Part shown: in pieces, positions 1-27,165 of the stretch
Numbering within the stretch: the first letter of the stretch is position 1
How the letters are laid out: the number at the start of each line of letters is the position of its first letter
From: Candidatus Wolfebacteria bacterium
GTDB taxonomy: Bacteria; Patescibacteriota; Minisyncoccia; Phycocordibacterales; NVSU01
NCBI GenBank assembly: GCA_002401345.1
Contig: NVSU01000012.1
Location: 1 to 34,226, forward strand
DNA: 34,226 nt
Reading direction: 5' to 3'
Made by a program: the position numbers and the translations under genes
The notes under the pieces: model-generated
What the model was told of the DNA's origin: nothing
The model's database searches: none
What the model saw: the letters and a program-made list of their open reading frames with translations, nothing else

Positions 1-38
1 CTTCAAAATAATTTTATAATTATAAAATTATTTTGAAG
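1..38. repeat. Perfect 38-bp palindrome (19 + 19)
   Basis: cttcaaaataattttataa / ttataaaattattttgaag are exact reverse complements; lies just 5' of the ATTTCACAGGGT element. Confidence 0.9.
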
Positions 39-41
39 AAT

Positions 42-92
42 ATTTCACAGGGTACTCAAATTTAATATTCACTTCGTTCACTTAAATTTCGT
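42..92 (+). promoter_or_regulatory. Leader element copy 1 upstream of rnc (ATTTCACAGGGTACTC + 35-nt segment abutting the ATG)
   Basis: Closely matches 13413-13428 + 13464-13498 upstream of the helicase, with identical 35-nt spacing to the start codon. Confidence 0.75.
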
Positions 93-13200: not shown

Positions 13201-13225
13201 CACTTAGACGTCGGACGTCTAAGTG
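13201..13225. terminator. 11-bp stem hairpin after trmD
   Basis: cacttagacgt-cgg-acgtctaagtg. Confidence 0.6.
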
Positions 13226-13241
13226 ATATATCTAATGTAAA

Positions 13242-13283
13242 AAATTAACATAAAATATGCACGTGCATATTTTATGTTAATTT
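13242..13283. repeat. Perfect 42-bp palindrome
   Basis: aaattaacataaaatatgcac / gtgcatattttatgttaattt exact reverse complements, no loop. Confidence 0.9.
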
Positions 13284-13352
13284 AGGTAGGAAATAAGCTG
13301 TGATACAATGTGGATATAGTAATTAAAAGCTGAGCGATTATATTGTTTTTTG

Positions 13353-13498
13353 ACCCCAGTGAAATATCCTTTTAAATAATTATTTAACAGGACGATCTTT
13401 CTTTAAAAGATCATTTCACAGGGTGCTCCCTGGCCGACTGCTGATGCATTCAGCTGGCTAGGCAAATTTAATATTCATTTCATTCATTTAAAATTGAC
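13353..13498 (+). promoter_or_regulatory. Leader element copy 2 upstream of the helicase: predicted three-way junction + ATTTCACAGGGTGCTC + 35-nt segment, interrupted by a 35-nt palindromic insertion (13429-13463)
   Basis: accccagtgaaat (13353-13365) pairs with atttcacagggt (13413-13424), enclosing hairpins 13368-13391 and 13394-13412; the remainder matches window positions 42-92. Confidence 0.65.
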
Positions 13499-15163
13499 AT
13501 GACACAACAAGAAGCACTCGATATTTTGAAAATGGGACATAATGTCTATCTCACAGGTAAGGCCGGCAGCGGTAAGACATATCTTATTAATAAATATATT
13601 AAATATTTAAAGGAACGAGATGTTGGTGTTGCAGTAACTGCATCAACCGGCATTGCGGCAACTCACATAGGTGGAGTGACTATTCATTCGTGGGCTGGCA
13701 TAGGAATTAAAGACAAGCTGACGGATCAGGATATTGATGCAATGGAGCAGAAACAATATCTGTGGAAACGATTTGAGAATACGGAAGTACTCATCATAGA
13801 CGAAGTATCCATGCTTCACTCTCATCTACTTGATATGATTGACCAAGTATGCAAACTCTTCAAACGAAATGATAAGCCATTTGGGGGAATGCAGATTATT
13901 CTCTCTGGTGATTTTTTCCAACTTCCACCTATTTCTCGCAATAGTGAAGATCTGAATTTTTTAAATAAATCTGATGCATGGAGCAATATGGATCTTCACA
14001 TTTGTTATCTACAAGAACAACACCGTCACACAGACTCTAGTTTTTTGGATGTATTGAATGAAATTCGCAGTAATACTGTGAGTGAGGAAACAATGAATAA
14101 ATTGCGTCGTCGTTATAAAAAAGACCCCGAGGGAATATCAGTTCCCACAAAGCTCTATACCCATAATATGGATGTTGATGAAATGAACAATAGAGAACTT
14201 GATAAAATAGACGCAGAAAAATACGAATACAATATGAACAGCAAGGGAAACAATGTATTAGTCGAAGGTTTAAAGAAGAGTTGTCTTGCACCAGCAAATC
14301 TAGTGTTGAAAAAAGGGGCGCTTGTGATGTTTGTTAAAAATAATTATGAAGAAGGATATGTAAATGGAACAACGGGTGAAGTGATCGATTTCTCTATAGA
14401 GGGGCGCCCGATCATTAAGATCCAGAATGGAAAGAAAATTATAGCAGATACTGAAAGTTGGATAATCGAAGAGGAAGGTAAGACAAAAGCAGAAATATCT
14501 CAGATGCCACTCAGGCTTGCGTGGGCGATTACAATTCATAAAAGCCAAGGCATGAGTTTGGATGCTGCTGAAGTTGATCTTTCTAAATCTTTTGTGAAGG
14601 GCCAGGGATATGTCGCGCTCTCAAGAGTGAGATCACTTTCAGGACTTAAGTTAATGGGATTAAACAGTACTGCGCTCCAAGTTGATAAAGGAATATTGAT
14701 GCTTGATGGGGAACTACTTGATAGGTCACAAAAAAATCAAGTCGAGATTTCCTCACTTGAGAACTCAAAAAAAGAAACACAACACAATGCCTTCATAGTG
14801 AATTCAGGAGGAACATTAGATGTGAAAAAGAAGAAAAATAAGGATAGATATTCAAAACTGTCGACATTCGATAAAACCAGGGAATTATTGAAGGAAAAAA
14901 AGACCATTGAAGAAATTATTAAGGAACGCGAATTGACTTTTGGCACCATCATCTCTCACATTGAAACATTACTGAAAGATGATGCTCCGCCAGATATAGA
15001 TTATCTCTATTCGAACACAAAGAAGCTCCGCGATTCACTCTCTGAAATAAAAAAGGCATTTAAGAAATCTGGAGGTACAAAACTTACAGAAGTACGTAAA
15101 ATCCTCAAGAATAAGTATTCTTTTGAAGAATTACGCTTCGCGCGACTATTTCTAGATAGATAA
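13499..15163 (+). CDS. Pif1-like superfamily 1 DNA helicase with C-terminal helix-turn-helix domain
   Basis: VYLTGKAGSGKTYL Walker A, VTASTGIAATHIGGVTIHSWAGIG, VLIIDEVSML, ILSGDFFQLPP, AWAITIHKSQGMSLD, GQGYVALSRVRSLSGL; C-terminal TRELLKEKKTIEEIIKERELTFGTIISHI resembles HTH_40. Confidence 0.93.
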   Translation: MTQQEALDILKMGHNVYLTGKAGSGKTYLINKYIKYLKERDVGVAVTASTGIAATHIGGVTIHSWAGIGIKDKLTDQDIDAMEQKQYLWKRFENTEVLIIDEVSMLHSHLLDMIDQVCKLFKRNDKPFGGMQIILSGDFFQLPPISRNSEDLNFLNKSDAWSNMDLHICYLQEQHRHTDSSFLDVLNEIRSNTVSEETMNKLRRRYKKDPEGISVPTKLYTHNMDVDEMNNRELDKIDAEKYEYNMNSKGNNVLVEGLKKSCLAPANLVLKKGALVMFVKNNYEEGYVNGTTGEVIDFSIEGRPIIKIQNGKKIIADTESWIIEEEGKTKAEISQMPLRLAWAITIHKSQGMSLDAAEVDLSKSFVKGQGYVALSRVRSLSGLKLMGLNSTALQVDKGILMLDGELLDRSQKNQVEISSLENSKKETQHNAFIVNSGGTLDVKKKKNKDRYSKLSTFDKTRELLKEKKTIEEIIKERELTFGTIISHIETLLKDDAPPDIDYLYSNTKKLRDSLSEIKKAFKKSGGTKLTEVRKILKNKYSFEELRFARLFLDR

Positions 15164-15460: not shown

Positions 15461-15503
15461 TCCCGACGCTTTGGTCGGGGTCCCGACCAAAGCGTCGGGG
15501 CTG
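15461..15503. repeat. GC-rich composite inverted repeat, copy A
   Basis: cccgacgctttggtcggg-gt-cccgaccaaagcgtcggg; homologous to 27122-27165. Confidence 0.85.
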
Positions 15504-15564
15504 AGTGCACGATAATTTTTTTCACTCCACATTTATTAGCATATAATTAATATCGTACATATAT

Positions 15565-21700: not shown

Positions 21701-22435
21701 CCTAAGAATGCTGCAGTGGTAAGTGAAAGTGATGGGGAAGTTATTGAAGTAAATGAAAAGGATGAGGGAGGTAAAACTATTGTAGTACTCAACGATAGTA
21801 TTGAAGAAGGTAAGACAAATCAGGAAGAATATCATATTCCAGAGATTAGAAGGTCTAGGGTAAAGGTTGGTGATAAAGTTGTAAAAGGAGAGCTTCTTAC
21901 TGATGGATCAGCAAATATTGCGTCAGTCTTCGAGTATGGAGGTAAAGAAGTAGCCGAACAATATATTGTTCACGAAATTGATAAAGTGTATGAATTGCAG
22001 GGTGCGTCAACTTCACGAAAACATATTGAAGTTATTATCAGACAAATGTTTTCTCGAAGAAGAATAAAAGACGCAGGTGAAACTCTATTTTCTCCTGGAG
22101 AAATAGTAGAAAATATACAGCTCGTTGAAGAGAATGTTCTTCTTAAGAAAGAAGGAGGAAAAGAAGCCAAGGCTGAAGAGATCGTATTAGGTATTTCTGA
22201 GGTATCTTTGACTACAAAAAGTTGGCTTTCTGCTGCTTCATTCCAAAATACCAACAGGGTTCTTATTACTAATGCAATTCGAGGAGGTGAAGATGACCTG
22301 AGAGGTCTTAAAGAAAATGTGATTATCGGTAGATTTATACCAGCTGGAACCGGATTCCGTCTTAAGAATAAATCAAAAGAAGAGAATTCGTCAGCTGGCG
22401 GAGAGGAAAAGGAAGTAAAAGAGGCAAAGAAGTAA
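18779..22435 (+). CDS. rpoC: DNA-directed RNA polymerase beta' subunit
   Basis: NADFDGDQMAVYVPLS, zinc-site CYCGKYRRIRYKGIVCEKCGVEV, GEPGTQLTLRTFHTGG; start set at MNNIEKTDFD (18779), overlapping ORF start 18695 rejected. Confidence 0.98.
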   Translation: MNNIEKTDFDFISLKLASPEKIKEWSSGEVVKPETINYRTGRSERGGLFDERIFGPEKDYECYCGKYRRIRYKGIVCEKCGVEVTRSIVRRERMGHIELASPVAHIWFLRGVPSRMSILLNISITDLEKVVYFAGYIITKVIESEKESILKELEHEYKQKTKTTGDQDTKDKLKELFVTTKKEIAEIREGKVLSEAEYHTFSLKYGASFEANIGAEAIYNIFKNLDLQKLKEKTEQMIEKGGVTERAKLKKRMSLIRAMMHSDIRPEWMFLTAIPVIPPAIRPMVALDGGRHATSDLNDLYRRVINRNNRLKKLKEIGAPDVILRNEKRILQEAVDALIDNSISKQSDSKAMSQSQRRALKSLADNLKSKRGLFRQNLLGKRVDYSGRSVIVVGPQLKLNQCGLPKHMALELFKPFVIAKILESEMAFNIRGANKLIEEGVAEVWEILEEIIQGKYVLLNRAPTLHRLGIQAFNPILIEGNAIQVHPLVCTAFNADFDGDQMAVYVPLSAEAQLEAKELMAANKNLLKPQTGSAIVDPKQDIVLGCYWMTKIIDGEKGEGKIFARPNHAIATYEFGELSFRARIKVMGTDSPKYKQFKGEIFETTVGRLLFNSSLPPEFDYINEVIDKRKMSSLVDDLIREYGIDGTPKVLDKIKQFGFKYMTHAGITWGFDNVKVPEGKGKIVEKGKEAQQEITNQYEEGLLSEDEKYRKTIEIWENVKQQIEKLLPDTLVNDSSAHDILTSGARGSLGQLSQMAGMKGLIQSPTGKIIAFPVIPSYTEGLSPLEYFITTHGARKGLADTALKTASAGYLTRRLVDVAQDVVVTEEDCKTKDTKVMTKENVSGMEIPLSKIIRGRTVGADIKDSKGTVLYKKGELITKRIAFDIENKGVEEIQARTPLTCKTVHGLCRKCYGLDLARNELVKLGEAVGIIAAQAIGEPGTQLTLRTFHTGGVAGGADITQGLPRVEEIFERRIPKNAAVVSESDGEVIEVNEKDEGGKTIVVLNDSIEEGKTNQEEYHIPEIRRSRVKVGDKVVKGELLTDGSANIASVFEYGGKEVAEQYIVHEIDKVYELQGASTSRKHIEVIIRQMFSRRRIKDAGETLFSPGEIVENIQLVEENVLLKKEGGKEAKAEEIVLGISEVSLTTKSWLSAASFQNTNRVLITNAIRGGEDDLRGLKENVIIGRFIPAGTGFRLKNKSKEENSSAGGEEKEVKEAKK

Positions 22436-24327: not shown

Positions 24328-25653
24328 ATGGCAACAAAAAAGAAAAAATTAGTTCGCGCAAGCAAAAAAAAGAAAAATCCGCCAGCTGGCGGAAAGAAAA
24401 AAACTGCACCCGCTCGGGCACACAAAAAAAAGAAAAATCCGCCAGCTGGCGGAAAGAAAAAAACTGCACCCGCTCGGGCAAGCAAAAAAAAGAAAAATCC
24501 GCCAGCTGGCGGAAAGAAAAAAGCTGTCAGTGGGAAGAAAAAAAAGAAAGCAGTTAAGAAAGTTGGTCAAAAGACACGAAAAATTGATGAATTACGTGCT
24601 GACTTAGCGGTACTTGTGAAAAAAGGAGCAAAAAGAGGATTTATAACATACGATGAAATTCTCAAGACGTTTCCTAATATTGAGAATAAAGTTACTTTTC
24701 TAGATGAAGTCTACGAAATATTGTCCGATAGTGGTATTGATGTATTAGAGAGTGGTAATTTACTTGATATTGATGAGAGTCCAAAGAAAACTGAATATAA
24801 ATTTAAACAAAAACCGACTGGACGTGATTCTATCCAAATGTATTTGAAGGAAATAGGAAAATACCCCCTTCTTGTTGCTCGTCAGGAAAAAGAATATGCG
24901 CAGCGTATAGAAAAGGGGGACGCGGAAGCACGAAATCTTTTGGCTCGATCTAATCTTAGACTAGTGGTTTCTATTGCAAAAAAATATGTCGGAAGAAGTT
25001 CTGACCTTACATTACTTGATCTTATTCAAGAAGGGAATTTAGGACTTTTCAAGGCAGTTGATAAATTTGACTGGACAAAGGGATTTAAATTTTCAACATA
25101 TGCCACATGGTGGATTCGACAATCAATCACTCGATCGCTTGCCGATCAGTCACGAACGATTCGTATCCCCGTTCATATGGTAGAAACTATTTCTAAATAT
25201 AAAAAGATGTTTAGAAGACTTTCTCAAGATCTTGGGCGAGATCCATTGCCTGAGGAAATCGCGGCAGAAATGGATTTAGACGTTGAGAAAATTCATATAA
25301 TTAGAAAGATAAGTCAGGATACTATTTCTCTTGAGAAGCCGATTGGTAACGACGATGATAAGTCCACCATGTCAGAATTTATTGCTGACACAAAGATACT
25401 AAAGCCGGACCAGGACTCATCTCGGAGAATTTTGAGTGATCAAATTCGAGATATATTATCAGAAATAAGTCCTAAAGAAAGAAAGATTCTTGAAATGAGA
25501 TATGGACTCGTGAATGGGGTACAACATACACTTGAAGAAGTGGGACATGAATTCGGCGTAACTCGGGAGCGAATTCGTCAAATTGAAGCTAAAGTACAAG
25601 AAAAGCTCCGTCAGAACGAAAAAGTCATTCGATTGAGGAATTATTTTGAATAG
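24328..25653 (+). CDS. rpoD: Primary sigma factor (RpoD/SigA) with repetitive Lys/Ala/Pro N-terminal tail
   Basis: [76 protein letters not shown]; region 4 [29 protein letters not shown]. Confidence 0.97.
24361..24522 (+). repeat. 60-bp tandem repeat, about 2.7 copies, encoding [20 protein letters not shown]
   Basis: Near-identical 60-nt units beginning at 24361, 24421 and 24481, each containing tccgccagctggcgga. Confidence 0.95.
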
Positions 25654-26744: not shown

Positions 26745-26934
26745 TTTTTATTTTTCATTTGCGTTTGACTGTGCAATTCTATACAGATAGGGGACTTGGT
26801 CACAAGTTACTAAGTCTTTTGTCTCGTTAACTCACAAAAGTCTAAGTACCTGCGACCCCGCCTCGTCGACAAGCACTCGTCGTTCCTCCTCGTCTTGTAT
26901 ATCGCCTCCGGCTTTCAAGCCCTCTCTCCGACTA

Positions 26935-26978
26935 AAAACAAAGACACCATACACTAATGTGTATGGTGTCTTTGTTTT
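26935..26978 (-). terminator. 20-bp stem terminator downstream of tRNA-Thr
   Basis: aaaacaaagacaccatacac-taat-gtgtatggtgtctttgtttt. Confidence 0.85.
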
Positions 26979-26982
26979 ATTG

Positions 26983-27055
26983 AGCCGGAGAGAGGACTTG
27001 AACCCCCGACCTATCGCTTACAAAGCGACTGCTCTACCAACTGAGCTACTCCGGC
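26983..27055 (-). tRNA. trnT: tRNA-Thr, anticodon TGT; CCA not encoded
   Basis: Cloverleaf GCCGGAG TA GCTC AGTTGGTA GAGC A GTCGC TTTGTAA GCGAT AGGTC GGGGG TTCAAGT CCTCT CTCCGGC T. Confidence 0.93.
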
Positions 27056-27121
27056 TTATATTTTATTTGTTTTCTATTATTCTATCTTTATTTAATAAAA
27101 AAAGACATAGTAATCAACTGA

Positions 27122-27165
27122 GTCCCGATGCTTTGATCGGGACCCCGACCTTGTGCGTCGGGGCT
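27122..27165. repeat. GC-rich composite inverted repeat, copy B
   Basis: gtcccgatgctttgatcgggaccccgaccttgtgcgtcggggct aligns to 15461-15503. Confidence 0.8.

Follow-up and report, generated by a model that had tools for sequence, protein, structure and literature searches.

What is the structured sequence that directly precedes a helicase gene in this Candidatus Wolfebacteria genome: a leader proper to that gene, one of a family of regulatory leaders, or a unit that can turn up in front of other genes as well? The window (the whole stretch of 34,226 nt that was analysed; coordinates given without a contig name refer to it, on the forward strand unless stated) has a 72-base cloverleaf-like repeat at 13353-13424, in the leader of a gene for a PIF1-like helicase (13499-15163; PF05970, 1.9e-41). 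The minimum free energy (MFE) and centroid structures both give a three-way junction (-21.6 kcal/mol, z -5.9, equalled by none of 200 shuffles): a left outer arm ACCCCAGTGAAAT (13353-13365) and a right outer arm ATTTCACAGGGT (13413-13424) enclose one inner hairpin at 13367-13392 and a second (GATCTTT/AAAGATC) at 13394-13412. The outer stem has 3 bp (13355-57/13421-23), an A.A mismatch (13358/13420), and 7 bp (13359-65/13413-19). The original prediction had proposed a compact junction of just this make-up around two inner hairpins; all of its pieces lie where it had placed them, and both structure calculations agree with it.

On the 3′ side, it had GCTC followed at once by a 35-nt AT-rich segment. 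GCTC is there (13425-13428, directly 3′ of the junction), but the two are not adjacent: a further hairpin of 34 nt (CCTGGCC..GGCTAGG; 13429-13462) intervenes in the fold. This hairpin is related to sequence between rplN and rplX in another genome (L273), and constitutes a separate small palindromic repeat (CCTGGCCGACTG..GGCTAGG) common to distant genomes. The segment that abuts the start codon (13464-13498) is a degenerate copy of a 39-nt terminal hairpin: it is decayed here (z 0.0) and well formed in most of 28 others, with compensatory changes in 18-28 other copies. Upstream of the junction, a candidate extended -10 (TGATACAAT; 13301-13309), read from the sequence and not called by a simple promoter scan, would put the element in the helicase 5′ untranslated region. 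Between trmD and the helicase leader there is also a perfect 19-bp AT-rich palindrome (AAATTAACATAAAATATGCACGTGC..; 13242-13283), with a terminator-like call on the minus strand. An Rfam 15 covariance-model search of the window gave a tRNA as its sole match; the element was below gathering, its best weak matches (E 0.39 and 0.62) falling far under it.

The same 3′ half had been noted upstream of rnc, at the very start of the window (1-92): hairpin 2 (1-38), right arm (42-53), and the AT-rich start-abutting segment (58-92). The sequence is present, but it is not merely a half. Another contig of the genome, C12, closes with the same 38 nt with which the window opens (one perfect palindrome, which is hairpin 2 of the rnc copy), and the C12 end carries the missing left arm ACCCCAGTGAAAT and hairpin 1; the copy appears as a 3′ half because the contig begins there, an assembly effect. 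It lacks the 34-nt extra hairpin, so that GGGTACTC leads directly into AAATTT.

These two copies are far from the only ones. About 20 were found in the host genome (897 kb, read in stretches; later scans covered 861 kb of it) by BLAST and a pattern scan, followed by R1, a covariance model built on the outer stem. The covariance-model search of Patescibacteria genomes that the original prediction had suggested as a check yielded R1 matches in 31 of 397 genomes of the order, with strongly different copy numbers, and in 12 of 384 at class level; a second model built on more diverse arms (R2) was positive in 25 of 297 genomes. In all, 119 copies were collected from some 30 genomes. Their outer arms are conserved as ACCC(C/T)..GT.AAAT and ATTT.AC.GGGT, and are near-invariant within the host genome (ACCC(C/T)AGT.AAAT and ATTT.AC(A/G)GGGT), where the left arm of the window copy is among those conserved. 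The inner hairpins are another matter: between many copies their sequences are unrelated, while the palindromic nature, and with it the pairing, is retained. On folding, 93 of 112 full-length cores have the outer stem around exactly two hairpins. The complete element is built as an optional left hairpin, ACCC..GT.AAAT, two hairpins, ATTT.AC.GGGT, and the 39-nt hairpin, which usually bridges the junction and the ATG and has its base directly against the latter.

A leader specific to the helicase is rejected, since helicase homologues occur without the element: none was seen upstream of the 14 examined by eye from outside the host genus. The genes that do carry it, named by reading their N-termini, are mostly core genes, and several recur across families: nusA four times, fusA, rplB, and mreB three times each, and also rnc, rpsN, rplX, rplK, groL, rpmE, and mraZ. 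Spacing is tight as well, with 39 nt from arm to ATG in 23 sense copies and 35-46 nt in 67. Given this fixed distance, transcribed copies would form a 5′ leader of junction plus hairpin ending at the start codon.

Recurrent targets and constant spacing are what might be expected of a family of cis-regulatory RNA leaders that make up a regulon for growth or translation. In such a regulon, the junction and start hairpin would control how core genes are translated or how their mRNAs decay (for example as an RNase III substrate or a protein-binding site) and would be kept by selection, the nuclease-coding elements described below merely resembling them or hitch-hiking. The pattern of sequence change speaks for it too. 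Compensatory changes, another check put forward at the outset, are present in both parts of the element for which covariation was counted, the outer stem and the start hairpin (the count was limited to these because MAFFT fails on the unrelated inner hairpins). In the outer stem, both-sided changes affect 4 pairs (16 cells), a level reached in none of 500 shuffles; the start hairpin has 6 of its 11 pairs changed on both sides among 18 aligned copies, and sliding the partners lowers the score. Across 28 copies, the 39 nt between junction and ATG are 86% paired (70% in shuffles). Two rnc leaders from the same genus (L113 and L233) differ by one double compensatory change, together with changes to G.U.

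Several observations weigh against selection for a regulatory RNA as the primary explanation. The stems are almost purely Watson-Crick, with 4.4% G.U pairs where shuffled sequence has 13.8%, which points to palindromes at the DNA level. Presence is patchy, and core sequence does not follow orthology. A NYN gene in one genus has unrelated cores in two genomes (G147 and G353), while the G147 NYN core is identical at 58 of 60 positions to the core before mreB in a third (G188). Identical cores stand before different genes three times in one genome (G045), as three pairs in another (G366), and as one pair in G353; in the last, identity spans ACCCC to ATG and ends at both edges, the upstream sequence being different. 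The rplN-rplX spacer is only 0-37 nt long in most readable genomes, but in two (G070 and G176) it holds an element of the ACCC-arm family, and in two others (G016 and G011) the same terminal hairpins are found around different arms. Finally, as detailed below, the arms are also the ends of nuclease-coding elements. We therefore hold the regulatory-leader explanation to be unlikely; it is compatible with a mobile origin, as mobile elements can be co-opted.

Patchy distribution, identical copies before unrelated genes, and empty sites in most relatives together indicate that the unit is mobile. No same-genus genome was found for the host itself. The element is real, repeated, structured, and mobile in evolutionary time. 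It is short, non-coding, and multi-copy, has terminal inverted repeats, and occurs as dispersed copies with empty sites among relatives, all features of miniature inverted-repeat transposable elements (MITEs). Of the two halves of the original prediction, that of a previously undescribed structured leader with a start-abutting segment holds, given the further copies, the compensatory changes, and the lack of an Rfam match; its reservation that this might be a mobile repeat proved the better half.

A MITE also has an autonomous partner with shared ends, and a candidate is found in the host genome and in others. Between frr and aspS (G000:C11:30420-30735), the same arms, including the left arm of the window copy, and both flanking hairpins enclose an intact gene for an 87-aa GIY-YIG protein (60.6 bits against Pfam PF01541, cut-off 22.6; five of five members tested match). 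In this coding form, a single-domain GIY-YIG gene of about 85 codons replaces the two inner hairpins between the arms. Among close relatives of the C11 protein, nearly all are bounded by ACCC..GT.AAAT arms, with (L/V/I)KSY(L/F)(T/I)G and a stop at the C-terminus: the right arm itself encodes the nuclease C-terminus (e.g., LKSYLTG and stop; for the arm at 13413-13424, the coding counterpart reads ..SYFTG or ..SYLTG and stop), and GGGTGA, including the stop codon of the nuclease ORF, is retained in many junction copies. Six further coding elements (L278, L282, L311, L314, L316, and L321) share this build and have start-abutting hairpins like those of the junctions. More generally, inverted arms (score at least 11) flank 43 of 78 GIY-YIG ORFs and 5 of 300 size-matched control ORFs (p 2e-29). 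A group I intron carrying a GIY-YIG ORF is ruled out for the coding form, where about 15 nt between left arm and ORF is too short, and the window copy has no Rfam intron match.

GIY-YIG matches as such occur in 234 of 297 genomes of the order. When presence of the type-A nuclease is defined as a best A2 score of at least 119 bits, the two are associated: 12 of these 297 have both nuclease and junctions and 254 neither (p 2e-7, uncorrected for kinship). There are, however, 19 genomes that have junctions and no strong type-A match and 12 with the reverse, which counts against a mobile-element reading. So do the absence of a clear target-site duplication at ACCC-arm elements and the recurrence of target genes across families, which purely neutral insertion does not predict. 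The latter leaves two options: the starts of strongly transcribed genes are the preferred places for elements to enter or survive, or recruitment has occurred for some of them. On balance, we put at roughly 70% the probability that this is a MITE-like, non-autonomous mobile palindromic element, paired with an autonomous GIY-YIG form that shares its arms. The junction element is, then, probably a derivative of the GIY-YIG element that has lost autonomy and now serves as a 5′ leader, and the nuclease is, from the shared sequence, the putative agent of its movement.

The sites occupied by coding elements give some idea of how insertion might proceed. Those with a second kind of arm, CCCG, are often bounded by direct repeats of 5-7 bp that contain the start codon: ATGGA at typA (L202), GATGAAA (L287), and ATGTAT (L304). 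Duplications read from flanks are ATGAG (L194), ATGCAA (L215), ATGCA (L193), and ATGAAT at a leuS/murJ overlap (L034). For the ACCC-arm type, to which the window copy belongs, 15 GIY-YIG cases yielded only two duplications of at least 5 bp, which is near chance; a single offset repeat, AAATGAT, is found at ligA/gatC (L200). Other GIY-YIG elements are in or beside tRNA genes, and one (L197), with inverted arms of 20 nt, lies within a 16S rRNA gene.

At six loci (L036, L201, L204, L205, L207, and L210) the GIY-YIG gene adjoins a tRNA gene, and upstream there is an incomplete second copy of the 5′ part of the tRNA, which suggests that tRNA genes were the insertion targets and that the tRNA was restored. 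The window has a 35-nt inverted repeat of part of a tRNA (26907-26941 and 26975-27009) beside the tRNA at 26983-27055; it may be the remnant of a tRNA-targeted insertion. A palindrome, CCGCCAGCTGGCGG, which has 18 occurrences in the genome and also flanks the GIY-YIG gene at the tRNA locus L036, is found in the window (24354-24533, 22375-22410) within three 60-nt tandem repeats inside an ORF, and looks like a palindromic element within coding sequence. Another dispersed repeat of the window is a 34-nt GC-rich inverted pair (GGTCGGGGTCCCGACC..; 15473-15506 and 27117-27150), 88% complementary.

A possible sequence of events is as follows. The GIY-YIG nuclease would recognise the arms or the terminal hairpins and cut at or near a gene start; repair would then copy the element in, immediately 5′ of the ATG, leaving the gene intact and turning the element into its 5′ leader. 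In mRNA, its fold would be a three-way junction stacked on the terminal hairpin, whose end lies at the start codon. By analogy with the Correia elements of Neisseria, such a leader might affect translation or decay, for instance through RNase III, whose own gene bears a copy.

Mobilisation by a different enzyme has also to be considered. The element might be REPIN-like and have been moved by the resident RAYT/Y1 transposase instead of the GIY-YIG nuclease: of 11 element-bearing genomes, 9 have genes for a Y1 transposase, that of the host among them. However, the other two element-bearing genomes have no Y1 match, none of 21 Y1 loci has an ACCC-family arm pair adjacent to it, and most have palindromes of their own. 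The host RAYT is flanked by CTTAGACGTC.GACGTCTAAG, which is also found inside its ORF and has 11 copies genome-wide. This explanation is rejected as very improbable, and Y1 loci with their other palindromes provide a useful negative control for the association with GIY-YIG. The palindrome CTTAGACGTCGGACGTCTAAG that follows trmD in the window (13203-13223) is a REP of the resident RAYT-like Y1 transposase, and further copies of this REP are at G000:C12:1225, 1439, and 1907 (three at the transposase gene, one within its ORF). Slightly less probable still is that the sequence is a promoter, a terminator, or a fold arising by chance: the original prediction had allowed that TTGACC-17-TAAATA (13350-13378), which overlaps the left arm, might be a promoter, but the bases 5′ of ACCC vary between copies, the promoter scan makes no call there, no T-run follows the stem of the window copy, and dispersed, structured copies 39 nt before ATG codons, with a fold at z -5.9, refute it.

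Among known systems, the closest kinds are MITEs and REPINs; what is new is the enzyme, the coding of its tail by the arms, and the placement at start codons. REPINs and their RAYTs (PMC3116915, PMC8266576) likewise combine short, palindromic, non-autonomous intergenic repeats with one small single-domain enzyme that shares or is flanked by the palindrome. Here, in contrast, the enzyme is a GIY-YIG nuclease whose ORF is enclosed and partly encoded by the arms, the repeat is a three-way junction at start codons, and the host's true RAYT has a different palindrome. The Correia elements or NEMIS of Neisseria are inverted-repeat units of about 100-150 bp, often 5′ of genes like the element here; once transcribed, they form hairpins to which RNase III can bind or which it can cleave (PMC2649163). 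The terminal repeats printed there are unrelated to those here, and Correia elements have no nuclease-coding relative, whereas in the present case rnc itself bears a copy. Free-standing GIY-YIG homing endonucleases (PF01541) have the same catalytic domain; unlike them, the elements here have no visible intron, and do have inverted arms, many non-homologous sites per genome, and non-autonomous derivatives.

Small GIY-YIG genes in Patescibacteria are usually taken to encode repair enzymes or stray homing enzymes. In rRNA genes of the candidate phyla radiation (CPR), insertions with small GIY-YIG ORFs have been described for which there is no match to group I or group II introns and which the authors place outside homing (PMC11270868). 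The 16S rRNA insertion at L197, inverted arms included, resembles these; the text of that paper makes no reference to inverted repeats or palindromes, nor was a mention found in it of insertion at gene starts or of non-autonomous forms of the GIY-YIG type. The literature on GIY-YIG proteins or MITEs in Patescibacteria, covered for journal papers to the exclusion of preprints and sparsely for subscription titles, gave no description of this element class.

More than half of the GIY-YIG ORFs examined have inverted arms, and in one arm family the start codon is duplicated; together, these observations suggest a widespread transposon-like class of very small gene content. In its fullest form, which we consider evenly poised between right and wrong, the proposal is that Patescibacteria harbour minimal mobile elements whose sole protein is a GIY-YIG nuclease of about 85 aa, which insert at start codons (duplicating ATGNN) and at tRNA and rRNA genes, and spawn three-way-junction leaders of dozens of core genes. 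If true, this class would account for GIY-YIG insertions that lack introns in the rRNA genes of CPR bacteria, and among the most reduced bacterial genomes there would be some in which nusA, fusA, rplB, mreB, rnc, and other genes have mobile DNA as their 5′ leaders; whether such a leader is a parasite or a recruited regulator would then be a directly testable question.
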